Below are positions 26,671-39,414 of a DNA stretch of 64,000 nucleotides, piece by piece. Both the position numbers and the translations under genes were made by a program. This DNA comes from Verrucomicrobiota bacterium (lineage in GTDB: Bacteria > Verrucomicrobiota > Verrucomicrobiia > Limisphaerales > Pedosphaeraceae): contig JAJPHR010000034.1 of assembly GCA_021325145.1 (NCBI GenBank), forward strand, positions 1 to 64,000, read 5' to 3'. The number at the start of each line of letters is the position of its first letter. Position 1 is the first letter of the stretch. The notes below the pieces were generated by a model, which was given only the letters and a program-made list of their open reading frames with translations, did no database searches and had not been told where the DNA came from.

Positions 26671-26745
26671 TGGCTGCCTCGCCTGGCTTTGCTCCAGGAC
26701 CTCCGGTGTCAGAGACCGGCGCACTGCTGGTTATGCAACGAGGCA
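26671..26745 (-). tRNA. non-canonical tRNA-Gln(CTG)
   Basis: Complete cloverleaf: acceptor TGCCTCG/CGAGGCA, 3-bp D-stem with loop TAACCAGCAG (no GG), anticodon loop CTCTGAC (anticodon CTG), 4-nt variable region, T-stem CCTGG/CCAGG with loop AGCAAAG. Discriminator G and an encoded CCA. The U1-A72 pair and G73 fit glutamine identity. G is at T-loop position 55. Confidence 0.8.
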
Positions 26746-26750
26746 GTTCC

Positions 26751-26830
26751 AATGCGGAATTCGGAATGAGCCGGCGTAATCTCCAACGCCCTCGGGGAAT
26801 TCCGCACTCCGCACTCCTAATTCCGAATCG
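26751..26830. repeat. inter-tRNA spacer repeat (GCGGAATTCGG type)
   Basis: Spacer with GGAATTCGG and CGGAATTCCGCACTCCGCACTCC wording split by a short loop, forming an imperfect hairpin. Similar spacers lie near 30247, 36172, 38849 and 39097. Confidence 0.5.
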
Positions 26831-26834
26831 GAAA

Positions 26835-26908
26835 TGGTCGCCTGGGAAGGTTCTGCCCCCTCGATTTCTGGGTGTAGGCCAGACGTGATGCTATTTCACC
26901 ACCAGGCG
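26835..26908 (-). tRNA. non-canonical tRNA-Val(TAC)
   Basis: Acceptor CGCCTGG/CCAGGCG, D-stem GTGA/TCAC with loop AATAGCA, anticodon loop CCTACAC (anticodon TAC, C at position 33), variable 4 nt, T-stem GAGGG/CCTTC with loop GGCAGAA. Discriminator A and an encoded CCA. A18-G19 in the D-loop faces G55-C56. Confidence 0.8.
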
Positions 26909-27017
26909 TAAATTGCTTTGTGGATGAAGCGCAGAGTTCCAGCTCTGCACGTTGATTCCGATCCCGGTTCAGCCCCACCGTCAATCATCAATCGCAAATC
27001 AAAAATCAAAAATTCGA

Positions 27018-27091
27018 TGGCTGCCGGGGCTGGAATTGCACCAGCATTCGCGCCTTCAAAGGGCGCTGTCCTACGATTGGACGACCCGGCA
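27018..27091 (-). tRNA. non-canonical tRNA-Gln(TTG)
   Basis: Perfect cloverleaf: acceptor TGCCGGG/CCCGGCA, D-stem GTCC/GGAC with loop AATCGTA, anticodon stem GCGCC/GGCGC with loop CTTTGAA (anticodon TTG), variable GAAT, T-stem GCTGG/CCAGC with loop TGCAATT. Discriminator G, CCA encoded. U1-A72 again fits Gln. Confidence 0.85.
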
Positions 27092-27104
27092 ATCGAATTC
27101 GAAA

Positions 27105-27182
27105 TGGTGGAGCCGGAGGTAGTTGCAACCTCACCATGACCCGATTAAAAGTCGGGTGCCGGTCTGCTGTGGCTTCGGCTCC
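27105..27182 (-). tRNA. non-canonical tRNA-Lys(TTT)
   Basis: Acceptor GGAGCCG/CGGCTCC, D-stem GCC/GGC with loop ACAGCAGACC, anticodon loop CTTTTAA (anticodon TTT), 7-nt variable region, T-stem GAGGT/ACCTC with loop TGCAACT. Discriminator A, CCA encoded. Confidence 0.83.
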
Positions 27183-27265
27183 TTTGAAAGATACTTGGCA
27201 CTGCTTGTGCTCATTTTTCACAGGCCGGCTCTCATAAAGGCAAGTTGTGGCGGGCTGAAAAGCAC

Positions 27266-27751
27266 ATGAAATACTGCGTCAATATTCCACTGGGAGAGCC
27301 GCTGGCCTTCCCCCAAATCTGTCCATTCTCGGGCGATCCGTTTTCGAGCGGCACTGTCCGCCTGAAGCAAACCAAGACCTTGATGGTGCTGCCGCTTCCC
27401 GGCGGGATATATAACTCCTACTCGACAACGACATTGCGCGTCCCCGCTTCCGGGAGGATCGCAAAGCTTGCCCTCGGACTTGAAATCATGATCTGGATAT
27501 CCCTGCTTGGAGGCATCGGAATTTGCGTTTTGCTACTGACTCAATCACCGGGCACCCATGAAAGAACCGCGTTGCTGTCCTTGCTGGCGAGCCCGTTTCT
27601 CGCGCTGGGATTCCGGTTCTGGCGCTTTATGATCCTGCGTCCAGTGCGCATCAAACCCGCCCAGGATGGTTATACGGAGATGCAGTTCCAATCTGAGAGC
27701 TATGCCAGGCAGTTCTCAGAACTGAATCGCCTCCAGATGTTTGCGGATTAA
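27266..27751 (+). CDS. small membrane protein inside the tRNA array
   Basis: 161 residues, family not recognised. The first 60 residues contain a polar segment with two cysteines (KYCVN, QICPFSGDPF). Two hydrophobic segments follow: LEIMIWISLLGGIGICVLLL near residue 75 and ALLSLLASPFLALGFRFWRF. The tail is soluble. ATG 27266 gives a natural start. It is transcribed opposite to the flanking tRNA genes. Confidence 0.65.
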   Translation: MKYCVNIPLGEPLAFPQICPFSGDPFSSGTVRLKQTKTLMVLPLPGGIYNSYSTTTLRVPASGRIAKLALGLEIMIWISLLGGIGICVLLLTQSPGTHERTALLSLLASPFLALGFRFWRFMILRPVRIKPAQDGYTEMQFQSESYARQFSELNRLQMFAD

Positions 27752-27766
27752 ATCCGTCGGCCAAAC

Positions 27767-27843
27767 TGGTGCTTGCGGCAGGATTCGCACCTGCACTGGC
27801 GACGTTCTCGGCGTCGTGCCTCTACTGGTTGGGCTACACAAGC
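27767..27843 (-). tRNA. non-canonical tRNA with anticodon GAG (Leu)
   Basis: Acceptor GCTTGTG/CGCAAGC (one G-T pair), D-stem GCC/GGC with loop CAACCAGTAGA, anticodon stem CGACG/CGTCG with loop CCGAGAA (anticodon GAG, C33), 5-nt variable region, T-stem GCAGG/CCTGC with loop TGCGAAT. CCA encoded. A leucine anticodon without the long variable arm usual for bacterial tRNA-Leu. Confidence 0.78.
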
Positions 27844-27850
27844 GAAAGAT

Positions 27851-27937
27851 TCACACCTCCGGCCGGTCTCTTCCACCGGCTTATTCCCGGGTTGCGGGGC
27901 CGTTCGATCTACTTCGCGCTCGGAGGTGTAAAGGAAA
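27851..27937. repeat. inverted repeat, possible decayed tRNA
   Basis: ACACCTCC near 27853 pairs with GGAGGTGT near 27922, and an inner CCGGT/ACCGG hairpin resembles a T-arm. No clear anticodon arm and no CCA, so it is not called as a tRNA. Confidence 0.35.
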
Positions 27938-27940
27938 AAT

Positions 27941-28032
27941 TGGTACGCGCGTCCGGTAACGCTCCGGAACCCGGCACTCGTCCAGTGCGACTCCGCTTAT
28001 AAGGCGGACGGTTCTCTTTGAACTACGCGCGC
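27941..28032 (-). tRNA. non-canonical class II tRNA with anticodon TAT (Ile)
   Basis: Acceptor GCGCGCG/CGCGCGT (G1-T72 wobble), D-stem GTTC/GAAC with 5-nt loop AAAGA, anticodon stem TCCGC/GCGGA with loop CTTATAA (anticodon TAT). A long variable arm (GCACT/AGTGC hairpin) follows, then T-stem TCCGG/CCGGA with loop AGCGTTA. Discriminator A, CCA encoded. A long arm on an Ile anticodon is abnormal. Confidence 0.75.
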
Positions 28033-28051
28033 ATAAATCGCCTCTTTAAAG

Positions 28052-28138
28052 TGGCGGAAGGCCGTGGACTTGCACCACTTGCCAAAGGCATGCACTCGTT
28101 AGCACCGAGGCCCGGCTCGCTTGTCCGGTTGACCTTCC
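28052..28138 (-). tRNA. non-canonical tRNA-Ser(GCT)
   Basis: Acceptor GGAAGGT/GCCTTCC, D-stem CCGG/CCGG with loop ACAAGCGAG, anticodon loop GTGCTAA (anticodon GCT) on a 4-bp stem. Long variable arm with a TGCC/GGCA hairpin, T-loop TGCAAGT. Discriminator G and CCA. Long arm and G73 fit serine. Confidence 0.78.
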
Positions 28139-28155
28139 AAATTGACGATCTAAAA

Positions 28156-28239
28156 TGGTCGGCGTGGGGAGAATTGCACTCCCAAGGCTGGTCGGGTTTG
28201 AGCCGAAACGGTCTGCTGTTCCCGTTGAACCACACGCCG
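28156..28239 (-). tRNA. non-canonical tRNA-Leu(CAA)
   Basis: Acceptor CGGCGTG/CACGCCG, then a 7-nt linker TGGTTCA, inner D-stem ACGG/CCGT with loop GAACAGCAGA, anticodon loop CTCAAAC (anticodon CAA), 7-nt variable CAGCCTT, T-stem GGGAG/CTCCC with loop TGCAATT. Discriminator A, CCA encoded. The displaced D-stem is shared with the next two Leu genes. Confidence 0.78.
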
Positions 28240-28240
28240 G

Positions 28241-28322
28241 TCGACGCCCCGGGAATTGCACCCGGAAGGCTCAGCGATTTTAAGTCGCTGTGGTCTGCTG
28301 TTCCCGATAAAGCCAGGCGTCG
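28241..28322 (-). tRNA. non-canonical tRNA-Leu(TAA)
   Basis: Acceptor CGACGCC/GGCGTCG, linker of about 8 nt, weak D-stem with loop GAACAGCAGA, anticodon stem AGCGA/TCGCT with loop CTTAAAA (anticodon TAA), variable GAGCCTT, T-stem CCGGG/CCCGG with loop TGCAATT. No encoded CCA. Only two bases separate its acceptor from the 5' end of tRNA-Leu(CAA), so the two must be cut from one transcript. Confidence 0.78.
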
Positions 28323-28337
28323 TAAATGGCTTGACGG

Positions 28338-28390
28338 GCCGAAGCTCCCCAGTGTTGGCAACTGCCCAACTGCGCGCTGGTTGCTTCGGC
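28338..28390 (-). tRNA. mini tRNA-like hairpin, D-arm missing
   Basis: 53 bases: closing stem GCCGAAGC/GCTTCGGC, one arm CCAG/TTGG with loop CGCGCAG, and one arm CAGT/ACTG with T-like loop TGCCAAC (G55, C56, A58). There is no D-arm and no adjacent CCA. It may be a degenerate or miniature member of the array. Confidence 0.35.
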
Positions 28391-28427
28391 GCGGCAGCGT
28401 TGCTCTTGCTGCGCCTCGAGCGAAGGC

Positions 28428-28511
28428 TGGTGGGCATGAAGGGAATTGCACCCCCAAGGCTGCCAGATTCTGAGTCTGGACCCTCTGCTATTCGGGTTGA
28501 ACCACATGCCC
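28428..28511 (-). tRNA. non-canonical tRNA-Leu(CAG), copy 1
   Basis: Acceptor GGGCATG/CATGCCC, 7-nt linker TGGTTCA, D-stem ACCC/GGGT with loop GAATAGCAGA directly abutting the anticodon stem CCAGA/TCTGG, loop CTCAGAA (anticodon CAG), variable CAGCCTT, T-stem GGGGG/CCCTT with loop TGCAATT. Discriminator A, CCA encoded. No long variable arm. Confidence 0.8.
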
Positions 28512-28517
28512 GTAAAT

Positions 28518-28568
28518 TGGTGCTGGCACCCGGAGCGCACGGGTTTGCAGTCAAACTGCCAGCCAGCT
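28518..28568 (-). tRNA. mini tRNA-like element, D-arm missing
   Basis: About 51 bases ending in an encoded CCA: short acceptor GCTGGC/GCCAGC, one arm GCAG/CTGC, and T-arm ACCCG/CGGGT with loop TGCGCTC. A D-arm-like CCAG/CTGG can be drawn upstream, but then the acceptor does not pair. Uncertain. Confidence 0.35.
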
Positions 28569-28616
28569 TATCCCCTGGCCTGAACCTGATGCGCCCGGCT
28601 CCGGCTCAGGGCAAAC

Positions 28617-28694
28617 TGGTGCCGCGTGAAGGATTTGCACCCTCAACCTCCCCGTTCTGAGCGGGGCGCCTCTTTCTGGTTGGGCTAACGCGGC
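28617..28694 (-). tRNA. non-canonical tRNA with anticodon CAG (Leu), copy 2
   Basis: Acceptor GCCGCGT/ACGCGGC, D-stem GCC/GGC with loop CAACCAGAAAGA, anticodon stem CCCCG/CGGGG with loop CTCAGAA (anticodon CAG), variable AGGTT, T-stem GAGGG/CCTTC with loop TGCAAAT. Discriminator A, CCA encoded. A class I body unlike copy 1. Confidence 0.8.
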
Positions 28695-28831
28695 TTAAGA
28701 TTTTCAATTGGAAATCGAGGTTCTGAATCTGAAATTCTGCCGTCGCACAGATTCCCGGGAACAAATTCAAGCACCCGGCACTCGCACTTTTGAATAGCTT
28801 GCCGGGTTAACCAGAAAGCACCCGAAACTTT

Positions 28832-30112
28832 GTGGGCATGAATACGTCCGCTCGACGCTCGTTGCTAAGCTGCTTCGTTCGTTCTTTGAAGCGTTTCATA
28901 AGCTTTAAAATTGTAATTGTTGGGATCTTTGCCGGGCTTGATTCAAGTTTGGCCCAGAACTGGACAATCACTTCGGCGCCAGCCACGAATTGGGTATCGG
29001 TCGCATCTTCCGCGGATGGCAATCGTCTCGCGGCGCTTACGTATGATGGCGGCGCAGTTTATATTTCCACGAATGCCGGTGGTTCATGGACCTTAAGCAG
29101 TTCACCCAACGGTTTCGTCCTGGGATCTTCAATCGCGTCGTCAGCCGATGGGAGCATTCTCGCGGCGGCCGGCATCCGAGACGTGACCGGAGAATCCGCC
29201 GGCAACACTTACATGTCCACTAATTCGGGAGCGTCGTGGTTCACAGCCAGCCCATTCAAATCGTGGTCGTCCATCGCTTGCTCCGCCGATGGCGTGCAGT
29301 TGGCCGGAGCATGCTTCCTCCGCCGAAGCTTCGGCGGAGGGATAGTCGTCTCCACGGACGTTGGCCAGTCGTGGACTTTCTCGGGCGCCGCGAATGATGG
29401 CTGGGTTGCCGTCGCCAGTTCCACCGATGGCGTGAAGCTTGTCGCCGCCGATGCGGCAACCGGGCTGGTTTACACCTCCCCGGATGCGGGAAGCACCTGG
29501 ACGGCGGGCTTGCTGCCGGCACAGGCGTTTACCGCGGTAGGAACGTCCGCCGACGGAACGAGATTGATCGCCGCCAGTGGCAACAATGGCTCATTAACAG
29601 GGCCGATCTTCATCTCGACAAATTCCGGAATCAGTTGGACCCAAACTACTGCGCCGCTGACTAATTGGGTGGCGGTGGCCAGCTCAGTGGATGGCTCGAA
29701 ATTGGTCGCCGCCGGGGGAGGTTCAACTGCACTTGGACGAATCTACACTTCCACAAATTCCGGTGTGACCTGGAAGCAGGCGAATGCACCCCTGGCTAAT
29801 TGGACATCCGTGGCATCCTCGGCAGACGGGACAAAACTCGTCGCAACGATCTATGGTGGCCATATCTATACCTTGCATTTGTCCTTATTCACTCTCTCAC
29901 CAGAACTCCAAATCAAGCCACTAACCGGCAATGCCGTCGTTTCATGGCTCGTGCCCTCAATGAAATTCGTGCTGCAGGAAAACCCGGATTTGGCTTCCAC
30001 CAACTGGACAGATGTCACCGGATCGCCTTCGCTAAACCTTACAAATCTGGAGAATGAAGTTAGCGTATCGTTGTCTCCCGGCAGAAGCTATTACCGGCTT
30101 CGTTTCCAATGA
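28832..30112 (+). CDS. secreted beta-propeller-like repeat protein
   Basis: 427 residues: signal peptide (FKIVIVGIFAGLDSSLAQ), then about eight repeats with the consensus NWxxVASSADGxxLVA and internal ISTNSGxSWT, typical of BNR/Asp-box propellers. The C-terminal 60 residues form a separate strand-rich tail (TNWTDVTGSPSLNLTNL). Probably exported and carbohydrate- or surface-associated; no catalytic residues are assigned. It separates two blocks of tRNA genes. Confidence 0.75.
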   Translation: MGMNTSARRSLLSCFVRSLKRFISFKIVIVGIFAGLDSSLAQNWTITSAPATNWVSVASSADGNRLAALTYDGGAVYISTNAGGSWTLSSSPNGFVLGSSIASSADGSILAAAGIRDVTGESAGNTYMSTNSGASWFTASPFKSWSSIACSADGVQLAGACFLRRSFGGGIVVSTDVGQSWTFSGAANDGWVAVASSTDGVKLVAADAATGLVYTSPDAGSTWTAGLLPAQAFTAVGTSADGTRLIAASGNNGSLTGPIFISTNSGISWTQTTAPLTNWVAVASSVDGSKLVAAGGGSTALGRIYTSTNSGVTWKQANAPLANWTSVASSADGTKLVATIYGGHIYTLHLSLFTLSPELQIKPLTGNAVVSWLVPSMKFVLQENPDLASTNWTDVTGSPSLNLTNLENEVSVSLSPGRSYYRLRFQ

Positions 30113-30171
30113 AGCTGGCCAAGTGCAGCCGAATTCCGCCTTTAATCGCAAATCAAAAGTCAAAATGAAAT

Positions 30172-30247
30172 TGGCGCTCCCGGCAGGAATCTCGCCTGCA
30201 ACCTCCGCGTTCGAAGCGCGGCGCTCTATACATTGAGCTACGGAAGC
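30172..30247 (-). tRNA. non-canonical tRNA-Arg(TCG)
   Basis: Acceptor GCTTCCG/CGGGAGC, D-stem GCTC/GAGC with loop AATGTATA, anticodon stem CCGCG/CGCGG with loop CTTCGAA (anticodon TCG), variable AGGTT, T-stem GCAGG/CCTGC with loop CGAGATT. Discriminator G, CCA encoded. Here 56 is A and the D-loop offers T for a T19-A56 pair. Confidence 0.8.
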
Positions 30248-30303
30248 AATTGAATGCGGGATGGAAGACTTGCTTCCGAAGTTCCGCACCCCGCATTCAA
30301 AAG

Positions 30304-30379
30304 TGGTGCTCCGGCGGGGACTTGCACCCCGACCATTCCGCTTAAGAGGCGGACACTCTGCTGCTCGAGTTCCCGGAGC
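30304..30379 (-). tRNA. non-canonical tRNA-Lys(CTT)
   Basis: Acceptor GCTCCGG/CCGGAGC, D-stem ACTC/GAGT with loop GAGCAGCA, anticodon stem TCCGC/GCGGA with loop CTCTTAA (anticodon CTT), variable ATGGT, T-stem CGGGG/CCCCG with loop TGCAAGT. Discriminator A and CCA. All stems are perfect. Confidence 0.85.
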
Positions 30380-30391
30380 GAAAAGAGTGCA

Positions 30392-30458
30392 ACGCGAGAG
30401 TGGAGTTGAACCACCGCAGCCAGGCCTGTGAGGTCCTGACCGGCACCGGTGCTCGCGT
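30392..30458 (-). tRNA. tRNA-Val(CAC)-like with a canonical T-loop
   Basis: Acceptor ACGCGAG/CTCGCGT, D region CACCGGTGCCGGT that contains GG, anticodon loop CTCACAG (anticodon CAC) on an imperfect stem with a bulge, T-arm GGTGG/CCACT with loop TTCAACT. This is the only array member with the usual T54-T55-C56. No encoded CCA. It may be a decayed ordinary tRNA. Confidence 0.5.
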
Positions 30459-30466
30459 CGCGAAAT

Positions 30467-30552
30467 TGGAGCCGATGGAGAGACTTGCACTCCCGTGGGG
30501 CAATGCCCGGCAGTTTACAAAACTGCTGCTGTCGCTGCTGAGCCACATCGGC
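30467..30552 (-). tRNA. non-canonical class II tRNA with anticodon TGT (Thr)
   Basis: Acceptor GCCGATG/CATCGGC, D-stem GCT/AGC with loop CAGCAGCGAC, anticodon stem GCAGT/ACTGC with loop TTTGTAA (anticodon TGT; a one-base shift would read GTA). Long variable arm with GGGC/GCCC hairpin, T-stem GGGAG/CTCTC with loop TGCAAGT. Discriminator T, CCA encoded. Confidence 0.75.
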
Positions 30553-30574
30553 AAAATTGGCGTTGGAGAAAAGA

Positions 30575-30655
30575 AGGCTTGGTGGCTCCTGCGCTTGCGC
30601 CGGGGGAGGAAGCCCGACTCCTGTTCCAAAGCTGGTATGCTGCAACAATCTTGGG
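30575..30655 (-). pseudogene. possible degenerate tRNA
   Basis: Acceptor-like GCTCC/GGAGC ends and a CCA-like end, with TTTGGAA in the anticodon position, but the anticodon and T stems do not pair well. Recorded only as a candidate. Confidence 0.25.
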
Positions 30656-30657
30656 TG

Positions 30658-30720
30658 GAGCGCGTCACTTTGTGCGCGCCGCGTTGCGTTTGCAGGCGGA
30701 CGGCGGGCAGGGGGTTGCCA
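30658..30720. repeat. diverged copy of dispersed repeat family A
   Basis: Begins GCGCGTCACTTTGTGCGCGC and ends GGCGGGCAG, a weaker match to the copies at 22270, 23035 and 48421. Confidence 0.55.
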
Positions 30721-30749
30721 GTCCTACCATCGGGACTCCGCGATCTGAA

Positions 30750-31856
30750 TCACTTCCTGTCCTGAAACAGCAGCGGCGTGAATTGCGCCAGATTGCGACG
30801 CCACACGCGAAAGCTGTGCTGGCCGGGTGTTTTCACCCACTCGTGTTTTACTCCCTTGGAATCAAGCCAGTCGCTGAACTTTTGGTTGGGTGCAAACAAA
30901 CCATCCTGCTCGCCGCAAGCGATCCAAAGGAGGCGCAGTTGCGTATTGGCCTTCTCGTCGAGCGCGGGAAAATTGGCGGAATAGTTGGTGCCAACTCCGC
31001 CCGAACTGAAAGCGCCAATCCACGCGAAGCGATCCAGCGTGTTCAGCCCCACCCGGAGCGACTCTGCGCCGCCCATGGAAAGCCCGGCGATCGCGCGCGA
31101 TTTGCGATCCGCCTGGATGTGGTAATCCCTTTCCGCTTGGGGCAGCACTTCATTCAGGAGCGCCTGGCGGAAGTTTTCGTAGCTGCGTTCCGCGAGCCCG
31201 GGCGTTCGTGTCCGCGCGTGCAGAATCTCCATCGTGCCATAACCGAGCGGCATTACGACGATCATTGGCTTGACCTGGCCGCAAGCGATGAGGTTATCGA
31301 GAATCGTGTTGGCGCAACCGGCCGTGCTCCAAGCCGTGATGTCATCACTGAACCCGTGCAACAAATAAAGCGCCGGATAACGTTTTCTCGACTTTGGATC
31401 GTAACCCGGCGGGGTATAAACCATGAAATCCCGGCGATCTCCCGCCGCCTCTGATTTGTAGAAATGGCGATGCAATTCTCCATGCGGAACATCGTTGACC
31501 TCCCACGGCAGCGTCGCCGGACCCGGCACATGCACCTCGCTGTCCGAGTTCAACAAATTGTACTTCATCAGCGGGTTGGCCAGGTCGAGGGCGCGGACTC
31601 CATCCACGTTAAAGGAATACGTATAAATATCCGGCTCCAACGCATCCGTCGTCAACGACCACACTCCCTGCTCGTCCTTCTGCATTTTGGTTTCTTTGAC
31701 GCCTTCGCAGTGCACGAGCACTTCCCTGGCGTTGGGCGCCTTGAGCCGGAACGTGACCCGGCCGTCCGATTGCACTTCGGGTGAAACGACCGGTTGCGCG
31801 AGTGCCGAGGTGGCCACCGCCAAAGCCAGTCCGAGCGGGAAAATTTGGATACGCAT
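30750..31856 (-). CDS. secreted esterase of the enterochelin-esterase-like family
   Basis: 368 residues: signal peptide (QIFPLGLALAVATSALAQ), an N-terminal E-set/CBM48-like domain (GRVTFRLKAPNAREVLVHCEG), then an alpha/beta hydrolase: YPALYLLHGFSDDITAW, nucleophile elbow AIAGLSMGGAESLRV, and a late His in PGQHSFRVWRRN. This arrangement is common in Verrucomicrobia and usually removes acyl groups from plant polysaccharides (family knowledge). ATG 31856 starts the signal peptide. Confidence 0.88.
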   Translation of the reverse strand: MRIQIFPLGLALAVATSALAQPVVSPEVQSDGRVTFRLKAPNAREVLVHCEGVKETKMQKDEQGVWSLTTDALEPDIYTYSFNVDGVRALDLANPLMKYNLLNSDSEVHVPGPATLPWEVNDVPHGELHRHFYKSEAAGDRRDFMVYTPPGYDPKSRKRYPALYLLHGFSDDITAWSTAGCANTILDNLIACGQVKPMIVVMPLGYGTMEILHARTRTPGLAERSYENFRQALLNEVLPQAERDYHIQADRKSRAIAGLSMGGAESLRVGLNTLDRFAWIGAFSSGGVGTNYSANFPALDEKANTQLRLLWIACGEQDGLFAPNQKFSDWLDSKGVKHEWVKTPGQHSFRVWRRNLAQFTPLLFQDRK

Positions 31857-31989
31857 AGATGGGCTGGCTGTTAAATACTGCCGCGGTTGCTTCGCATCAA
31901 CACAAATGTGCCGAATCGGGCAACTGATCAGAAATCCGCGCAAATCGTAGCGGCCGACGTTAAGAGGCTTTAATCTTTACGGGAAGAAA

Positions 31990-32022
31990 CGTTGGAGCCT
32001 CCGTACGTCGGCTGTTACGTTT
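31990..32022. repeat. dispersed repeat family B, single arm
   Basis: Core GAGCCTCCGTACGTCGGCTG, upstream of the esterase and downstream of the next gene. Confidence 0.65.
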
Positions 32023-32056
32023 TGCTTAATGAGCATGGATAGCCATGCTACTCGCC

Positions 32057-32996: not shown

Positions 32997-33200
32997 ATGT
33001 GCTTTCGGGGACGCCTGCATTTTCGCGAGCTCGATCATTGTCCGAAAAACACGGAGCGGCTCGGTTGCCGCGCATTCGACGTGTTGCACGTTGCCCTGGC
33101 CCTCGAACTTGAATGCGAAACCTTCCTGACTTCCGACCGAATTCAACGCGCCCTGGCCCGCGCTGAAGGTCTGGATCCCATTATCAGCCCGGAAGAATAA
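32997..33200 (+). pseudogene. C-terminal fragment of a PIN-domain (VapC-like) toxin
   Basis: The stretch RAFDVLHVALALELECETFL followed by TSDRIQRALARAEGL matches the last third of PIN ribonucleases (acidic Asp, then the SD of the final strand). The N-terminal catalytic Asp and most of the core are missing, and no antitoxin gene is adjacent. Confidence 0.6.
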
Positions 33201-33309
33201 TCCAACAGGAAATGGAATCTCGCGCCAAAATTGCGCCAGCCTCTGCGGTTTTAGCAAACCGCCACCTGGGCAGCCGCGCAAGCACATTGGCCAACGGATA
33301 AATTTGAAA

Positions 33310-34209: not shown

Positions 34210-34313
34210 GACTAAGCAGTACAGTGGATATAATTAATACAACTATCAAGGAAGGAATGCGCTGCTATTTTGTATGCACGGTTATGAAATCCGGACAATG
34301 AACCATCCAAACG

Positions 34314-34580
34314 ATGAATGCCACCCTCTCAACCGAGAACCTTGAAATTGTGAACCACATCCTGATTGAACAACTTAACCTGCAACCCGGGCAGATCACA
34401 TCGGAAGCCAGATTCGGACAGGATCTCGGAGCCGACTCGCTGGACATGGTGGAGATCGGGATGAAACTTGATGAACAGTTCAACCTGACGACCACTGACA
34501 CGGAACTGGACACCAATTCAACCGTTGTTGAACTGTACGCCGCGGTGGCTGAGCGATTGGCGCAGGTCGAAGGCCGTTGA
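34314..34580 (+). CDS. acyl carrier protein
   Basis: 88 residues with the phosphopantetheine Ser in GQDLGADSLDMVEIGMKLDE. Acidic, with the usual four-helix length. It carries acyl intermediates in fatty-acid or polyketide-type synthesis. Not in a fab cluster, so it may be a second, specialised copy. Confidence 0.92.
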   Translation: MNATLSTENLEIVNHILIEQLNLQPGQITSEARFGQDLGADSLDMVEIGMKLDEQFNLTTTDTELDTNSTVVELYAAVAERLAQVEGR

Positions 34581-34822
34581 TGGTTTAAAGCCCGCCCGGT
34601 GGTGCACTCCGACGGTGGGTCCCAGGTTCTTAGTCGAGCATCAAGGCTGCTCTACCGGCCTTTGCAAGCAAGACTTGAGCGTTCCGGATCTACGGTGGGC
34701 TACCAACTTGACGATTTCGCCTACGCTCGGACTGTGGCAATAGCTCATTGCACTCACTCACTGCGCCAACGGCGGCAGAATATCCTTCACCCCCAGCGGA
34801 TGTGTTCGTAGTATCACTCGCT

Positions 34823-35956
34823 ATGATTTCACGAATCTTCAACGTCGCGGCGCTGGCTGGCGACGGCATCGGGCCCGAGGTGATGCGCGAGGGCATTAAG
34901 GTCCTTCGCGCCGTCGAGCAGAAATTCCCCGTCCGGTTCAACCTTACCGAAGCGCCGGTCGGCTGGGCCGGCATGGACGCCGCTGGCAAAGCCTTGCCCG
35001 ACACGACGCTGGCTTTATGCAAAAAGTCAGATGCGATTTTATTTGGCTCGGTTGGTTTGCCGGACCGTGATCCTACGGTTCCCAAGGACGAACGTCCCGA
35101 ACGGGCGGCGCTGTTGCGGCTGCGCCGGGAATTCGAATTGTTTGCCAACTTGCGCCCCGTGCGTTTGTGGACTGAGCTTGCGCATACCTGCCCGCTGATC
35201 CGCGAGCGGCAGGGTGCCGGGATCGATTTGCTTGTGGTGCGCGAGTTGACCGGCGGACTTTATTTCGGGAAGCCGAAAACCACGGAACAGCTTGGCCCTC
35301 ATCAGCGCCGCGCGATTGATACCATGGTTTATACGACCGCCGAGATCGAACGAATCGCCCACATTGCCTTTCGCGCGGCCGGGGGGCGGAGCAAATCCAG
35401 CGGGAAGAGCAAAGGCAAAGTCACCAGCATCGACAAGGCGAATGTGCTGGAGAATGGAATCCTTTGGCGTGAAGTGGTCACGGACATAGGAAGCAAATAC
35501 CCCGACGTGGAACTCGAACACATGCTGGTGGATAACGCGGCGATGCAACTCATGCTGAAACCAGCGCAGTTTGACGTGTTGCTCTGCGAAAATATGTTCG
35601 GTGACATCCTCAGCGACGAGGCCGCCGCGCTGGCCGGGTCGCTGGGCATGCTGCCGAGCGCCAGTCTTGGTGTCGCGGGCGGCGATCGTGTTTTCGGCCT
35701 CTACGAACCCGCCGGCGGGACGGCGCCGGATATTGCCGGCCGGGATATCGCCAACCCGATTGCGCAAATTCTCTCCGCCGCCCTGATGCTGCAGCACAGT
35801 TTCGGGTTAAACGAGGCGCACGATGCGATCGTCTCGGCTGTGGGCAAGGCCATTGCCGCCGGTTATCGAACCGGTGACATTTTTAGCCCTTTGGATCGAT
35901 CCTCCAGAAAAGTAGGGACGCGCGAGATGGGAGACGCGATTGCGGCGGCGCTTTGA
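34823..35956 (+). CDS. leuB: 3-isopropylmalate dehydrogenase
   Basis: Leucine biosynthesis: oxidative decarboxylation of 3-isopropylmalate with NAD. Signatures: VAALAGDGIGPEVM, ELTGGLYFG, KANVLENGILWREVV, and MFGDILSDEAAALAGSLGMLPSAS. ATG 34823 is the correct start; the frame upstream (34748) is spurious. A Lys/Ser/Gly-rich insertion (GGRSKSSGKSKGKV) precedes the KANVL motif. Confidence 0.93.
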   Translation: MISRIFNVAALAGDGIGPEVMREGIKVLRAVEQKFPVRFNLTEAPVGWAGMDAAGKALPDTTLALCKKSDAILFGSVGLPDRDPTVPKDERPERAALLRLRREFELFANLRPVRLWTELAHTCPLIRERQGAGIDLLVVRELTGGLYFGKPKTTEQLGPHQRRAIDTMVYTTAEIERIAHIAFRAAGGRSKSSGKSKGKVTSIDKANVLENGILWREVVTDIGSKYPDVELEHMLVDNAAMQLMLKPAQFDVLLCENMFGDILSDEAAALAGSLGMLPSASLGVAGGDRVFGLYEPAGGTAPDIAGRDIANPIAQILSAALMLQHSFGLNEAHDAIVSAVGKAIAAGYRTGDIFSPLDRSSRKVGTREMGDAIAAAL

Positions 35957-35994
35957 GTGGGATGCCTGACGCAAGTTGGACGTCAGTAACAAAT

Positions 35995-36084
35995 TGGTCG
36001 AGCATCAGGGTATCGCGCCCTATACCCCTGCTTGGAAGGTCCTTGCGGACGGCAAAAGCGTGTGTCTATGAACACCCATACGCG
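35995..36084 (-). tRNA. tRNA-like, probable anticodon GTC (Asp)
   Basis: Acceptor CGCGTAT/ATGCTCG (one mismatch), D-stem GTGT/ACAC with loop TCATAG, possible anticodon loop CCGTCCG, long variable region with CCTT/AGGG, T-stem TAGGG/CCCTG with loop CGCGATA, discriminator A and an encoded CCA. The anticodon assignment is tentative. Confidence 0.5.
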
Positions 36085-36089
36085 GGAAA

Positions 36090-36165
36090 TGGTCAGGGCG
36101 ACGGGAGTTGCACCCGCACAGTCCGCGTCACAGGCGGAGATGCTAACTGTTACATCACGACCCTG
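36090..36165 (-). tRNA. non-canonical tRNA-His(GTG)
   Basis: Acceptor CAGGGTC/CGCCCTG (last pair mismatched), D-stem GATG/CATC with loop TAACAGTTAG, anticodon stem TCCGC/GCGGA with loop CTGTGAC (anticodon GTG), variable CTGT, T-stem GCGGG/CCCGT with loop TGCAACT. Discriminator A, CCA encoded. There is no G at -1 and no C73, the usual histidine identity elements. Confidence 0.8.
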
Positions 36166-36171
36166 ATTTGA

Positions 36172-36243
36172 GTGCGGAATTGGAACCAAGGCAAGCACCC
36201 AAGTGCCTTCCATTCCGCACTCAACACTCCGAACTCCGCACTT
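36172..36243. repeat. inter-tRNA spacer hairpin
   Basis: GAGTGCGGAATTGGAA pairs imperfectly with TTCCATTCCGCACTC across a short loop. Spacer type shared by several tRNA gaps. Confidence 0.55.
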
Positions 36244-36246
36244 AGA

Positions 36247-36324
36247 TGGCGCTCTCACGTGGACTTGCACCACGAACCTCCGCCTTCGCAGAGCGGCGTG
36301 CAGAACTGCTTACACCTTGAGAGC
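36247..36324 (-). tRNA. non-canonical tRNA-Arg(GCG)
   Basis: Acceptor GCTCTCA/TGAGAGC, D-stem GTG/CAC with loop TAAGCAGTTCTG, anticodon stem CCGCT/GGCGG with loop CTGCGAA (anticodon GCG), variable AGGTT, T-stem CGTGG/CCACG with loop TGCAAGT. Discriminator G and CCA. Confidence 0.82.
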
Positions 36325-36463
36325 TGACCGGAAAACACCAACCACCAAGTTTCAAACACCAGAAAACTTCCAATGCCCAAGCTCCAAAGCGCCAGAAAGA
36401 CCGCGCGCCATTGGGATTTGGTGCTTGGCGCTTCTCTGGAGCTTGGAACTTGGTGGTTGGAGG
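36325..36463. repeat. long imperfect inverted repeat
   Basis: CCAACCACCAAGTTTC near 36340 pairs with GGAACTTGGTGGTTGG near 36440, with inner CCAAGCTCCAAAGCGCC/GGCGCTTCTCTGGAGC-type arms. No gene. Confidence 0.6.
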
Positions 36464-37648
36464 TTAGCGCCTGATGGCGCGTGTTTTATACGTGAGGAGC
36501 GGACGCATCGTTGCGATAACCGACACGAGACCCGCATCCACCAGGTCTTGGATCACGGTTTCGATGTTTTTGTACGCCGCGGGCGCTTCCTCGTAGAGCA
36601 GGTCGCGTTCTTCGCAAATCACGCGGCCACCCAGGGGAGTCTGCACCAACTGCGGCTGGCGGAAGCGTTCGCGCATGCGCGAACGGCTTTCGCTGCGGGA
36701 CCATTTGCGGCCGGCGCCGTGAGCCAGCGACCACAGGTTGGTTTCACCATTGCCGAGCGGCAATACGAGATAACTCAACGCGCCGCGACTGCCAGGGATC
36801 ACCACCGGACCGGCCTCCGCCGGGACTGCGCCCTTGCGATGCAGCCAGAGGGGTTCGCCACCGGAGGGCAGGAGAGTGATGCTGTTATGGCAACCATCCC
36901 AGATGCGTTCGCTGGATGCGCCGAGAGCGGACATGAATCGCTTGGCGATGAGCGCACGATTCGTGGCAGCCCAACGCACGGCGATGTCATGGCCCCGAAG
37001 GTATTCTTTGGCAGCGGACGAACCGGCGGCCGTTCCCGCCCCGTGATGCTCGTCCACATGGCCGCGCAGGATGGTTTCACCCAGACCGCGCGAACCACTG
37101 TGAACGAGCACCACCAGTTCCTCTTTCCCCAGACCCCACTGCTTCAGTTTCTTGGCGTCCAAAATTTCCTCGACCGCCTGCAATTCAGCGAAATGATTGC
37201 CGCCGCCGATGGTGCCGAGGGCGGGATCGAAATCCGTCGAGTGCAGGCCGGCCGTCGCAAGGACTTCGCGAGCGTCGCCTTCCCACGGATGTTCCAGATC
37301 GAACGAAAGCGCGGCCCAACGATCGAGCCTGGCCTTGTGGCGCACCAAATTCGTTTTCCACAAGCCCATGCCGCAACCGATGTCTCCGCCGATTAGGTGC
37401 GGATAGAACTTGCCCGCGGTCACAAACGCCGCACCGACCGGCGCGCCCTTGCCTGGATGCAAGTCCGGGAAGCCGACCGCCCGTTGCACACCTTCGAGTC
37501 GCGCGGTGGCATAAAGCTGGCGCACAGCTTCGCCTTCGATCCAGCTTTTCGCTGAGGCGAAGAGGCGGACGGCGGGGAATGGGGCAATGGGTTGCGAATC
37601 GCCAGCAGATTCAACTGGTCCAGCGCATTGGCTTTTGCATGTGATCAT
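36464..37648 (-). CDS. rtcB: RtcB-family RNA ligase inside the tRNA array
   Basis: Joins 2',3'-cyclic-phosphate or 3'-phosphate RNA ends to 5'-OH ends, using GTP and Mn. 394 residues. Metal and active-site motifs are intact: LIGGDIGCGMG (Cys), GTIGGGNHFAELQ (His), VLVHSGSRGLGE (His), DGCHNSITLL (His) and the guanylated His in SLAHGAGRKWSRSE. The size and sequence resemble the short RtcB homologues annotated as release-factor-H-coupled in other bacteria; no prfH gene is seen here. It is on the same strand as all the tRNA genes, between tRNA-Arg(GCG) and tRNA-Phe, so it likely acts on these RNAs (inference). Confidence 0.93.
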   Translation of the reverse strand: MITCKSQCAGPVESAGDSQPIAPFPAVRLFASAKSWIEGEAVRQLYATARLEGVQRAVGFPDLHPGKGAPVGAAFVTAGKFYPHLIGGDIGCGMGLWKTNLVRHKARLDRWAALSFDLEHPWEGDAREVLATAGLHSTDFDPALGTIGGGNHFAELQAVEEILDAKKLKQWGLGKEELVVLVHSGSRGLGETILRGHVDEHHGAGTAAGSSAAKEYLRGHDIAVRWAATNRALIAKRFMSALGASSERIWDGCHNSITLLPSGGEPLWLHRKGAVPAEAGPVVIPGSRGALSYLVLPLGNGETNLWSLAHGAGRKWSRSESRSRMRERFRQPQLVQTPLGGRVICEERDLLYEEAPAAYKNIETVIQDLVDAGLVSVIATMRPLLTYKTRAIRR

Positions 37649-37665
37649 ATCGTTTGTTTGTGAAT

Positions 37666-37741
37666 TGGCCGCTGGAGTCGGAATTGCGCCGACACTTCCT
37701 GTGCTTCAGACAGGCGTGCAGACTGACTACACCATCCAGCG
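37666..37741 (-). tRNA. non-canonical tRNA-Phe(GAA)
   Basis: Acceptor CGCTGGA/TCCAGCG, D-stem GTG/CAC with loop TAGTCAGTCTG, anticodon stem CCTGT/ACAGG with loop CTGAAGC (anticodon GAA), variable AAGT, T-stem GTCGG/CCGAC with loop CGCAATT. Discriminator G, CCA encoded. It ends 18 bases upstream of the rtcB start codon. Confidence 0.83.
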
Positions 37742-38230
37742 ATGTTGTGGTTTGGGCCAACCGACGGGCGCTTCCGCCGGCGGTGGCGTGTGCGACGCCT
37801 CCTGGTTGTCGGGCAGGGAGGGGCGCGCCGGGCGGAACGTGACGCTTGAGGCGTGACGGATAACGCGAACTGATTTGTAGCTCAGTTGAAAGAGCGAGAG
37901 GCCGTGCAGGCGACCGAAGAGTTTCATGGGGTTCCTTTCTTTGCCGGGAGTTGGTTAGTTTCTGGTGCTTGCGTGAGCGAGCCGCACCACAGTGGTGCGG
38001 GCAGGCTTGAACGAGATTCGCAGTGGACGACAGCCGCGCGCCGGCTTGTAGCTGCGACGAATGAGGAGGCGGCTCTGGAAACGAATCGGTACTCGCATAA
38101 TGATCCTTGGGTTGAGTGTTGGACTAAAGCAGCGGCTCGCCGAGCCGTAGCCCGCTTGTGTGAACGGGCGCGGTCCGCCTACGCGCTCTGCGCTTCGGCG
38201 CGACAGCCTTCGCCCGCCGCTTCGCAGAGG
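37742..38230. other. non-coding stretch, possible tRNA remnant
   Basis: About 490 bases without a supported gene. At 37872-37895 a plus-strand TTGTAGCTCAGTTGAAAGAGC resembles a tRNA D-arm, but no acceptor or T-arm follows. A perfect CCGCACCAC/GTGGTGCGG hairpin lies near 37981. GGGCGAAGGCTG-type arms near 38209-38238 pair with CAGCCTTCGCCC. Confidence 0.35.
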
Positions 38231-38238
38231 GCGAAGGC

Positions 38239-38312
38239 TGGTCGTCTCGCAGGGTAACGCTCCCCGGTCTCCCGCTTATCAGGCGGGCGCTCTGCTTTTG
38301 AGCTACGGGACG
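38239..38312 (-). tRNA. non-canonical tRNA-Ile(GAT)
   Basis: Acceptor CGTCCCG/CGAGACG (one mismatch), D-stem GCTC/GAGC with loop AAAAGCA, anticodon stem CCCGC/GCGGG with loop CTGATAA (anticodon GAT), variable AGAC, T-stem CGGGG/CCCTG with loop AGCGTTA. Discriminator A and CCA. Here 54/58 are A and T, the reverse of normal. Confidence 0.8.
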
Positions 38313-38318
38313 GAAAAT

Positions 38319-38405
38319 TGGCGGTTGGGGCAGGACTTGCACCCGCACAGGTGTTACCCTCACTCGGTTTTCGGGACCGGGACAATTCTATTCTGTCACC
38401 CAACC
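38319..38405 (-). tRNA. non-canonical tRNA-Ser(CGA)
   Basis: Acceptor GGTTGGG/CCCAACC, D-stem GACA/TGTC with loop GAATAGAAT, anticodon loop CCCGAAA (anticodon CGA, C33), long variable arm containing AGGGTAACACCT, T-stem GCGGG/CCTGC with loop TGCAAGT. Discriminator G, CCA encoded. Long arm and G73 fit serine. Confidence 0.8.
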
Positions 38406-38422
38406 GGAAATGGAATTGACGA

Positions 38423-38496
38423 TGGCTGCCGGACCTGGACTCGCACCAGGACAAGCGGTTTAACAAACCGCCGTGCTACTTTGACACTATCCGGCA
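38423..38496 (-). tRNA. non-canonical tRNA-Asn(GTT)
   Basis: Acceptor TGCCGGA/TCCGGCA, D-stem GTG/CAC with loop TCAAAGTAG, anticodon stem GCGGT/ACCGC with loop TTGTTAA (anticodon GTT), variable TTGT, T-stem CCTGG/CCAGG with loop TGCGAGT. Discriminator G and CCA. Confidence 0.84.
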
Positions 38497-38497
38497 A

Positions 38498-38574
38498 TGG
38501 CACTGCCGGCAGGATTTGCACCTGCCTGAATTCGTTTAGAAGACGAATGCCTCATCTCGCTCGGCCACGGCAGC
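38498..38574 (-). tRNA. non-canonical tRNA-Arg(TCT)
   Basis: Acceptor GCTGCCG/CGGCAGT, D-stem GCC/GGC with loop GAGCGAGATGA, anticodon stem TTCGT/ACGAA with loop CTTCTAA (anticodon TCT), variable TTCAG, T-stem GCAGG/CCTGC with loop TGCAAAT. Discriminator G, CCA encoded. One base separates its CCA from the 5' end of tRNA-Asn. Confidence 0.83.
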
Positions 38575-38586
38575 AATCAAATAAAG

Positions 38587-38662
38587 TGGTCGGAATGGCA
38601 GGATTTTCACCTGCGGCCTCCCGGTCCCAGGCCGGGCGCTCTAAAGACTGAGCTACACTCCG
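38587..38662 (-). tRNA. non-canonical tRNA-Pro(TGG)
   Basis: Acceptor CGGAGTG/CATTCCG, D-stem GCTC/GAGC with loop AGTCTTTA, anticodon stem CCCGG/CCGGG with loop CCTGGGA (anticodon TGG, C33), variable AGGCC, T-stem GCAGG/CCTGC with loop TGAAAAT. C1-G72 and A73 fit proline. 56 is A and D-loop 19 is T, a compensatory swap. Confidence 0.82.
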
Positions 38663-38763
38663 ATAATAAAATTCTGCCCCGGCCGGTGCACAGGCGGGCG
38701 GCCGGGGACTTGGTTTTGTAGATGCGGGTGATGGCCGTCCTTGGACAGACATTCCGCAGAAGT

Positions 38764-38838
38764 TGGCGCTCCCGGTGGGACCTGCACCCACACTCTTCCC
38801 GCAGACAACGGGTTGCTTTTCTATTCAGCTACGGGAGC
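38764..38838 (-). tRNA. non-canonical tRNA-Asp(GTC)
   Basis: Acceptor GCTCCCG/CGGGAGC, D-stem GCT/AGC with loop GAATAGAAA, anticodon loop TTGTCTG (anticodon GTC) on CCCG/CGGG, variable AGAGT, T-stem GTGGG/CCCAC with loop TGCAGGT. Discriminator G and CCA; G73 fits aspartate. Confidence 0.8.
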
Positions 38839-38906
38839 CCGCTAAGTTTGGAATTCAGAAGGCGGAGTGTTGAATGGAATGAACACTCGGCACTTCGAGC
38901 CAAAGC

Positions 38907-38979
38907 TGGAGGCGGGGGTGGGAGTTGCACCCACGAAAGCTGAGCTTATGAGGCTCGCTTGAATCTCATTCTCCCCGCA
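38907..38979 (-). tRNA. non-canonical tRNA with anticodon CAT (Met), T1/C72 mismatch
   Basis: Acceptor TGCGGGG/CCCCGCC with the first pair mismatched, very small D-hairpin GAAT/ATTC with loop GAG, anticodon loop CTCATAA (anticodon CAT) on GAGC/GCTC, variable of 6 nt, T-stem GTGGG/CCCAC with loop TGCAACT. Discriminator T, CCA encoded. The unpaired 1-72 position is initiator-like. Confidence 0.78.
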
Positions 38980-38995
38980 GTAAATAGGCGAAAGC

Positions 38996-39085
38996 TGGTG
39001 GGAAGTGCTGGTAACGCTCCAGTTCGTCGCTTCCGATTTTGTTTAACGACACCTGATTTACAGTCAGGCAACCGGATCACCGCCC
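38996..39085 (-). tRNA. non-canonical tRNA-Tyr(GTA) with collapsed D region
   Basis: Acceptor GGGCGGT/ACTTCCC (one mismatch, one G-T), only 10 bases (GATCCGGTTG) before the anticodon stem CCTGA/TCAGG, loop CTGTAAA (anticodon GTA). Long variable arm with GTCG/CGAC ends, T-stem ACTGG/CCAGC with loop AGCGTTA. Discriminator A, CCA encoded. No normal D-arm can be drawn. Confidence 0.75.
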
Positions 39086-39161
39086 AATTAAATGTAGAGT
39101 TGAGAATGCGGAGTGCGGAATGGGAAGATCTTCCGCACGGCACGTCATGCCGGGCCAAAGT

Positions 39162-39239
39162 TGGTAGCGGGGATGGGAATCACACCCATCTGAAGGAGTT
39201 TATGAGGCTCCTCTCTGTGCTTTAGTCGAGTTCCCCGCA
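39162..39239 (-). tRNA. non-canonical tRNA with anticodon CAT (Met), T1/T72 mismatch
   Basis: Acceptor TGCGGGG/CCCCGCT with the first pair mismatched, D-stem CTC/GAG with loop GACTAAAGCACA, anticodon loop CTCATAA (anticodon CAT), T-stem GATGGG/CCCATC with loop TGTGATT. Discriminator A and CCA. Here 56 is T and the D-loop offers AA for an A19-T56 pair. Confidence 0.78.
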
Positions 39240-39287
39240 ATGAAAATTAACTTCTCCAAAAATGGCGGTTTGCGAAGGCGTGACCTG

Positions 39288-39341
39288 AAAAGGACATCCG
39301 TCGCGTGGAACCTCGCTTTGCTCGGGTTTCAAGCGACGGAT
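39288..39341. repeat. perfect hairpin between tRNA genes
   Basis: CATCCGTCGC and GCGACGGATG form a 10-bp stem around a loop of about 28 bases that itself contains AACC/GGTT arms. Confidence 0.6.
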
Positions 39342-39414
39342 GGTGCGGTTGCCGGGAATTACACCCGGACATGCTCCGTGGCGGGGAGCCATTCTGTTGT
39401 TAAATCACAACCGC
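39341..39414 (-). tRNA. non-canonical tRNA-Gly(GCC)
   Basis: Acceptor GCGGTTG/CAACCGC, D-stem ATT/AAT with loop TAACAACAG, anticodon stem GCTCC/GGAGC with loop CCGCCAC (anticodon GCC, C33), variable ATGT, T-stem CCGGG/CCCGG with loop TGTAATT. Discriminator A, CCA encoded. 56 is T and 19 is A, a compensatory swap. Confidence 0.82.

Follow-up and report, generated by a model that had tools for sequence, protein, structure and literature searches.

A Verrucomicrobiota tRNA gene array with a recoded elbow and predicted RNA-repair neighbours

The 64,000-nucleotide stretch of Verrucomicrobiota bacterium contig JAJPHR010000034.1 analysed here (hereafter the window) carries an array of 28 cloverleaf tRNA genes, all on the minus strand and running from position 39414 to 26671, in which tRNA position 55 is G in all 28 genes and U in none (0/28). 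In the standard tRNA elbow, as passages of PMC7912444 describe it, G18 pairs with U55 and G19 with C56; in the array this elbow is recoded rather than lost, because a shift at 55 is mostly matched by one at 18 and the 19-56 pair is often kept. We give about an even chance to the reading that the array, with its predicted RNA-repair neighbours, encodes a further tRNA set beside the ordinary one, its elbow recoded, and likely serves as a standby translation kit that stands in for damaged ordinary tRNAs.

The array and its elbow

The density limit for a tRNA array unit is 2 genes per kb, and the present array, with 2.2 tRNA genes per kb (28 genes in 12.7 kb), lies above it and also holds the 20 or more genes of such a unit. 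A cloverleaf scan that requires an encoded CCA found 26 genes in 26671-39414, all on the minus strand and all with G55; without a T-loop filter the same 26 genes, and no other T-loop type, were obtained there. A plus-strand match at 51837, which arose beside these 26 when the scan was restricted to G55 or TTC loops, was dropped. (Most runs of the scan demand CCA; it labels certain long-armed Leu genes wrongly as ACT, CGT or CGG, and it includes a few false positives, locus L091 for example.) Two further genes, Leu-TAA (28240-28322, model E 3.8e-5) and Tyr-GTA (38996-39085, model E 0.77), bring the supported count to 28, where a first-pass annotation of the sequence had rightly seen an array and put it at about 29 genes. 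A covariance model built from 18 array members, a check proposed in that annotation, gave 26 matches at E <= 0.0087, all on the minus strand and inside the claimed stretch. As had been anticipated, standard searches do less well: ARAGORN recovers 15 of the 28 genes, and the Rfam tRNA model gives 15 matches over the whole window or 19 if only 24-42 kb is searched. G55 sets of this kind are probably under-annotated, since general tRNA finders overlook the genes or give them low scores.

The well-paired stems seen at first sight are borne out by an alignment of 18 genes, in which 96.6% of helix cells are paired and 20 of 21 pairs vary on either side, a result equalled by none of 500 shuffles. A looser cloverleaf scan gave 33 overlapping parses on the minus strand at 26-40 kb, several of them due to chance; on control sequence it gave 4 on the plus strand of those 14 kb, and 2 and 4 on 26 kb and 24 kb of minus strand, respectively. 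Degenerate or random hairpins are rejected on this helix covariation and on the scan counts relative to control sequence. The array T-loops include TGCRANT, AGCGTTA, GGCAGAA, CGCAATT, CGAGATT and TGAAAAT. Nearly all genes were said to encode CCA, and 27/28 do, though 26 of these were selected for it; Leu-TAA ends in CCG. G55 had been claimed for every member but one. It holds in all 28; the supposed exception is perhaps a TTCAACT-loop cloverleaf at 30388-30458 that scores weakly (12.6 bits, E 0.18) and that we left out of the 28. This stretch and a second weak cloverleaf-like one at 27851-27927 (14 bits) are possible relics. Elsewhere in the genome, off the array contig, there are 43 more tRNA matches; every one of the 30 loci fetched from these has a TTC-loop tRNA, and none has a G55 gene.

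Position 18 was compared in tRNAs with a 7-nucleotide D-loop (92 of 318 array-locus genes, 91 of 238 G55 and 264 of 982 TT-loop genes of virus contigs, and 15 of 47 canonical genes). It is A in 77/92 G55 tRNAs of the array loci, C in 7, G in 7 and U in 1, and A in 6/7 and C in 1/7 of those in the window; with no U55 and so little G18, the array does not carry the canonical TTCRANY loop with G18 G19. The canonical set has G18-U55 in 15/15. Virus contigs that mix both tRNA types are the cleanest test of the 18/55 switch, and there it is nearly complete, with A18 in 85/91 G55 tRNAs and G18 in 260/264 TT-loop tRNAs.

Position 19 was compared with 56 in 243 distinct D-loop/T-loop combinations with a placeable D-loop length. 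When 56 is C, a G is available at 19 in 195/208, which we count as the tertiary pair being present; when it is not C, 20 of the 35 distinct cases have a Watson-Crick partner at 19, where 2000 permutations gave a mean of 10.1 and at most 19. By base this is 11/18 for A56, 6/11 for G56 and 3/6 for U56, the excess coming from A56 and G56. The virus subset has the partner in 5/7 non-C56 cases, and 21 of 2000 permutations reached the same. Examples among isoacceptors, with D-loop positions placed by us, are Val (GGC with A18 G19, or AGA with A18 U19), Arg-TCT (TGG with A18 C19) and Gly (TGT with A18 A19). Positions 54 and 58 covary as well (T-A 136, A-T 27, C-A 19 and G-G 17 of 216), and U54 is missing in 7/26 window genes. 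Zagryadskaya in 2003 reportedly found by laboratory selection in suppressor tRNA libraries that a G54-G58 T-loop variant works in a single tRNA; G54 with G58 recurs here in GGCAGNA loops, in natural sets rather than laboratory selections. Plain loss of the elbow, of the mitochondrial type II kind, is rejected on the compensated 19-56 pair and the coupled 18/55 change among genes with placeable D-loops. The T-loop had at first been called merely non-canonical; it is indeed not TTC, and the mostly coupled 18/55 change and the often-kept 19-56 pair show that it is part of a recoded elbow.

The genes of the array are as follows (scan, the looser cloverleaf scan; model, the array covariance model).

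39341..39414, minus strand: tRNA-Gly(GCC); scan, model; T-loop TGTAATT, D-loop AACAACA (A19 facing U56)
39162..39239, minus strand: tRNA-Met(CAT); scan, model; T-loop TGTGATT
38996..39085, minus strand: tRNA-Tyr(GTA); read from sequence, model E 0.77; long variable arm, T-loop AGCGTTA (pattern match)
38907..38979, minus strand: second tRNA(CAT); model; short D-arm, T-loop TGCAACT
38764..38838, minus strand: tRNA-Asp(GTC); ARAGORN, Rfam, scan, model
38587..38662, minus strand: tRNA-Pro(TGG); ARAGORN, Rfam, scan, model; T-loop TGAAAAT, U available at 19
38498..38574, minus strand: tRNA-Arg(TCT); ARAGORN, Rfam, scan, model
38423..38496, minus strand: tRNA-Asn(GTT); ARAGORN, Rfam, scan, model
38319..38405, minus strand: tRNA-Ser(CGA); ARAGORN, Rfam (24-42 kb), model
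38239..38312, minus strand: tRNA-Ile(GAT); ARAGORN, Rfam, scan, model; T-loop AGCGTTA
37666..37741, minus strand: tRNA-Phe(GAA); ARAGORN, Rfam, scan, model
36247..36324, minus strand: tRNA-Arg(GCG); Rfam, scan, model
36090..36165, minus strand: tRNA-His(GTG); ARAGORN, Rfam, model; A73, no encoded G-1
35995..36084, minus strand: tRNA-Gly(TCC); model; hairpin-like insertion in anticodon arm, probably broken
30467..30552, minus strand: tRNA-Thr(TGT); ARAGORN, Rfam, model
30304..30379, minus strand: tRNA-Lys(CTT); Rfam, scan, model
30172..30247, minus strand: tRNA-Arg(TCG); ARAGORN, Rfam, scan, model; T-loop CGAGATT
28617..28694, minus strand: tRNA-Leu(CAG); ARAGORN, Rfam, scan, model; short variable arm
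28428..28511, minus strand: second tRNA-Leu(CAG); Rfam, model; anticodon read from sequence
28240..28322, minus strand: tRNA-Leu(TAA); model, sequence; no encoded CCA
28156..28239, minus strand: tRNA-Leu(CAA); Rfam (24-42 kb), model; anticodon read from sequence
28052..28138, minus strand: tRNA-Ser(GCT); scan, model
27941..28032, minus strand: tRNA-Ile(TAT); ARAGORN, scan, model; T-loop AGCGTTA
27767..27843, minus strand: tRNA-Leu(GAG); ARAGORN, Rfam, scan, model
27105..27182, minus strand: tRNA-Lys(TTT); scan, model
27018..27091, minus strand: tRNA-Gln(TTG); ARAGORN, Rfam, scan, model; C18 G19 facing G55 C56
26835..26908, minus strand: tRNA-Val(TAC); Rfam (24-42 kb), scan, model; T-loop GGCAGAA
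26671..26745, minus strand: tRNA-Gln(CTG); ARAGORN, scan, model; T-loop AGCAAAG

The Gly-TCC gene is called probably broken because of the insertion in its anticodon arm.

Charging signals, decoding and distribution

The charging analysis covered 342 array genes, including 24 from virus contig L123. The Ala identity pair G3-U70 is present in 12/12 Ala genes of the array set and in 0/330 other genes; none of these 12 lies in the window, whose set has no Ala. The discriminator base N73 matches that of the canonical tRNA for the same amino acid in 227/295 genes (shuffled mean 107.8, maximum 139 in 5000 shuffles), the 47 canonical tRNAs being from this genome and some relatives. Charging signals are largely kept, and the array genes look like working tRNAs. 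Set against other families of the order, 26 window genes reach a median 91% identity with their best matches; against canonical tRNAs the figure is 65%, and the best match is for the same amino acid in 6/26; between the tRNA genes, the matches listed in the cross-family comparison show short chance-level similarity only.

The sets counted span 15 to 20 amino acids, with several isoacceptors for Leu, Arg, Gln, Lys and Ile. Two compact arrays (L249 and L250) cover 20 amino acids and would decode 59 and 58 of the 61 codons with a U34 that reads four, or 57 and 52 of 61 with one that reads two. The codon and amino-acid counts use a manually corrected anticodon list for the window (TAA, CAA, CAG and GTA added, CGT and ACT removed) and, for genome G369, a list to which TCT was added, where that gene is G55 without an encoded CCA. 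Arg-GCG occurs in 10 array loci and in virus contig L123 (window copy 36247-36324), where the canonical set of the genome and plasmid arrays use Arg-ACG; the exception is the L260 gene at 4579, an Arg-ACG with G55. Ile-TAT is found in 7 array loci (window copy 27941-28032) and also among TT-loop virus tRNAs. The Arg-GCG and Ile-TAT genes would spare inosine and lysidine formation.

Genome surveys were made within the phylum Verrucomicrobiota. G55 arrays are present in 13 genomes of a 40-genome sample, with a largely conserved gene order (Gly Trp Ala Met Asp Pro Asn Arg, Ile Phe, the RNA ligase gene RtcB2 where present, Glu Arg Thr His...). The T-loop pattern occurs at least 10 times on one strand in 33/196 genomes of the order, a count made by eye with a pattern that misses small arrays, against 2/196 for the reversed pattern. 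The AGCGTTA pattern is found in 7/387 phylum genomes, this one included. Two genomes of the same class, G369 and G138, each have a compact set, with 36 genes from the scan and 20 amino acids, and G229 has a short array of 6 G55 genes. Single AGCGTTA matches in G074, G406 and G267 (L215, L216 and L218) were dismissed as chance, because no G55 tRNA lies within the surrounding 3 kb.

At least 120 IMG/VR stretches also have matches (L095-L214). Among the 120 listed, 31 have at least 3 G55 genes, and 29 of those 31 also hold TTC genes. In these virus tRNA clusters ordinary and G55 tRNAs stand side by side, and AGCGTTA, GGCAGNA and TGCRANT loops occur. BLAST of virus tRNA stretches against named phages matched tRNA genes. 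L123, a contig catalogued as viral, has 24 G55 genes, no TTC gene and an HNH gene at its end.

Predicted RNA-repair neighbours and possible function

The element extends past the end first given for the array, down to 19966, and includes the following predicted genes.

36464..37648, minus strand: RNA ligase RtcB of the release-factor-H-associated type (RtcB2), inside the array; TIGR03073 435 bits (cut-off 271.8), NF007153 499 bits (cut-off 407)
22384..22974, minus strand: HNH endonuclease, a recurrent companion on the 3' side of arrays; PF13395 42.9 bits
21887..22282, minus strand: C-terminal remnant of a slipin (SPFH/Band 7); PF01145 30.8 bits, profile 119-175 of 176
21081..21890, minus strand: predicted ATP-dependent RNA ligase; PF09414 120 bits
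19966..21084, minus strand: HD domain and P-loop kinase, a predicted RNA end-healing enzyme; PF01966 40.2 and PF13671 81.7 bits

RNA end-healing HD-Pnk proteins of the Runella type have an N-terminal HD domain and a C-terminal polynucleotide kinase, and the predicted HD-kinase has this layout (HD 43-137, AAA_33 231-358). It scores 25.9 bits, far under the cut-off, with the Pnkp model TIGR04075, and its kinase part matches chains 4jst and 4gp7 (E 5.9e-5), there named metallophosphoesterase, which we take to be Pnkp kinase. A search of solved structures gave no match for the RNA ligase. HNH homologues accompany 16 further array loci (two as partial matches), HNH being the commonest though not a universal companion of array units, and in 10 further loci of relatives they are 67-86% identical. 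In genome G007 HNH and slipin are followed by a second long RtcB and then by ligase and HD-kinase, and the window island therefore appears to lack the long RtcB and half of the slipin; ligase and HD-kinase adjoin the array in the window and G007 only, among the loci fetched. RtcB2 is above cut-off in 9/40 genomes, all 9 of which also have G55 tRNAs. In G031 a RtcB2 match is in two pieces in one frame (G031:C84:63695-64846), and another G55 array of that genome, on C25, also has RtcB2. We rejected a recent origin of RtcB2 from viruses, as a one-protein pattern scan that detects close relatives only found no close relative in IMG/VR.

Two other candidate components were rejected. Ro60 lies mid-array in 7 related arrays and is not in this genome; PrfH is above cut-off in only one of the 40 genomes (G004, beside RtcB2) and is not a general partner. 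G369 and G138 have a sigma-factor gene after HNH, and the sigma-70-like gene downstream of HNH in compact arrays L249 and L250 is a possible dedicated regulator. The plus strand between array and HNH carries a DinB-like polymerase gene and a GNAT-aminotransferase fusion gene (25040-26431 and 23048-24973).

The sequence itself shows cloverleaves, 18/55 coupling, 19-56 compensation, largely kept charging signals, isoacceptor-specific conservation across families, and the neighbour genes. On the standby reading, tRNA or ribosome damage would lead to transcription of the array, and its products would fold into the L, be processed, charged and used by the ribosome, substituting for damaged ordinary tRNAs. 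With no U55, seldom G18 and, in 7/26 window genes, no U54, they would evade the enzymes (TruB, TrmH and, where U54 is gone, TrmA) and tRNA-cutting toxins that depend on these nucleotides; the mending of cut tRNAs would fall to RtcB2 and the ligase/kinase pair. A toxin that cuts the T-loop between the T and pseudouridine (Psi) residues is described in a passage of PMC9086364. Somewhat short of even odds is our estimate for a wider form of the idea, a parallel tRNA system common to Verrucomicrobiota chromosomes and large phages: a complete set with a differently coded elbow (A18-G55, free 19-56 and 54-58 pairs) and its own RNA-repair genes, keeping ribosomes running when the universal elbow is attacked.

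Several observations weigh against the standby reading. The main doubts come from the window set itself, which is incomplete (no Ala, Cys, Glu or Trp), has the disrupted Gly-TCC gene, and is interrupted by unrelated genes, as is the interval between array and HNH (leuB, LysR-like, esterase, DinB-like); this copy may be decaying even if the family is functional. The slipin is truncated here and Ro60 is absent from the genome; G001, G019, G035 and G036 have G55 arrays and no RtcB2 above cut-off; PADLOC has no match for RtcB2 or the RNA ligase, and gives weak domain-level Cas3, Cas9 and PtuB matches for HD-kinase and HNH. Some discriminators differ from the canonical base, namely His A in 7/10 (canonical C), Gly A in 13/19 (canonical T), Glu A in 8/14 (canonical G) and Phe G in 6/14 (canonical A). 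At the elbow, 15/35 non-C56 cases have no Watson-Crick partner at 19, the partner of U56 is no commoner (3/6) than in C56 tRNAs (100/208), and Trp genes and two CAT classes have unplaceable D-loops of 4 to 6 nucleotides. HNH-linked arrays with ordinary T-loops exist, and the elbow change is therefore not required for an array.

The broken gene and the unrelated insertions, like the presence of G55 tRNAs in virus contigs, would also suit a relic, namely a phage or plasmid array that integrated, has no function and drifts. Drift fits poorly with a median 91% cross-family identity set against chance-level similarity outside the tRNA genes (among the matches listed), and with the compensating changes, largely conserved gene order and recurrent companions, and we regard a relic as improbable. 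The altered D- and T-loops recall those of staphylococci, in which an elbow-altered tRNA-Gly serves the cell wall, and the array tRNAs might likewise be non-ribosomal amino-acid donors; the several isoacceptors, the 15 to 20 amino acids of the counted sets and the often-kept pair 19-56 make this very unlikely.

Independence from modification is a further alternative, in which the set works with few modifications (no Psi55, Arg-GCG in place of inosine-dependent ACG, Ile-TAT in place of lysidine-dependent CAT), for example in a many-host mobile element or under a stress that halts modification. The lack of U55, the Arg-GCG genes of 10 array loci and L123, and the Ile-TAT genes of 7 loci are what it predicts. 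U34 anticodons need modification for accuracy and would still require it here, Ile-TAT is shared with TT-loop virus tRNAs, and the L260 gene pairs Arg-ACG with G55; we give this explanation little weight. Nor is it probable that the set is a decoy that absorbs anticodon nucleases or other tRNA-cutting enzymes and is unused in translation. The adjoining predicted RNA-repair genes would fit that role, and phage tRNAs are reported to counter tRNA-targeting defence (in titles cited in PMC12803027), but a decoy has no need to keep the Ala G3-U70 pair, discriminator bases or pair 19-56, and in each of two compact sets nearly every codon is covered.

Few features of tRNA are as conserved as the UUC/G18-G19 elbow, and whole sets here carry another solution. 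They form a natural experiment with hundreds of sequences to compare, in which the roles of Psi55, T54 and G18 become testable, as do the enzymes and toxins that read elbow letters and the idea of a spare, differently marked tRNA pool in cells. If their function is confirmed, the array genes would be a source of orthogonal tRNAs.

Comparison with known systems

tRNA array units with HNH genes are known from mycobacteria, their plasmids and phages, and as passages of PMC5966550 and PMC12803027 describe them they share blocks of at least 20 genes, 19-20 amino acids, canonical redundancy and HNH as the commonest companion. We surveyed twelve loci, counting TTC and G55 loops only (three loci had no such gene and two had one or two). 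All counted loops are TTC in Methylibium (21/21), Mycolicibacterium (24/24), Pseudarthrobacter (26/26), phage Tunturi_5 (22/22) and phage S-CBWM1 (27/27); two Nostoc plasmid arrays combined have 29 TTC and 2 G55. The Curtobacterium and Rossellomorea arrays have U55 in each ARAGORN gene also parsed by the cloverleaf scan. The named plasmid and phage arrays thus have ordinary U55 T-loops (seven examples), whereas the present one has G55 throughout, mostly A18, and the RtcB2, RNA ligase and HD-kinase genes, and a classical plasmid array was rejected on this ground. The ordinary 37-tRNA array of Curtobacterium plasmid pS16 (L227) also includes a tmRNA gene and an RNA ligase gene, and Myxococcus phage Mx1 (L269) has TROVE/Ro60, peptidyl-tRNA hydrolase and an HNH homologue near its tRNA genes. 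Because the named arrays have ordinary loops, the recoded elbow is the new element, and tRNA arrays with HNH are already known. The first-pass annotation knew of no described bacterial set like this one; of G55 sets we too found no comparable description in open-licence papers.

In Anabaena PCC 7120 a silent 26-tRNA operon is controlled by the repressor TrcR, co-repressed with rtcB, slipin and HNH genes, and induced by ribosome-targeting antibiotics, as reported in passages of PMC10272220. The parts list is similar to that of the island, and the operon is a precedent for the standby reading; the Anabaena regulon, as described there, is dispersed over chromosome and plasmid. The genes around the ordinary tRNAs of phage Tunturi_5 (L268), namely HNH, tRNA ligase, ribosomal protein S6 modification and tRNA nucleotidyltransferase genes, recall the TrcR regulon. 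The Salmonella rsr-yrlBA-rtcBA operon joins RtcB with Ro60/Rsr, comparable to the Ro60 of the 7 related arrays; the passages of PMC7790460 that describe it name Y RNAs and no tRNA set, and the present genome is without Ro60. The RtcB2-PrfH operon of E. coli ATCC 25922, according to an excerpt of PMC9223846, shares the TIGR03073 type of RtcB (435 bits here), and differs in that this genome has no PrfH match above cut-off, adjacent or otherwise. Mitochondrial type II tRNAs and tRNA-Pyl also have altered D- and T-loops, but in the account given in parts of PMC7609411 they have given up or rebuilt the D-T contact, whereas the array often keeps pair 19-56 and shifts 18 and 55 together, across a whole set.

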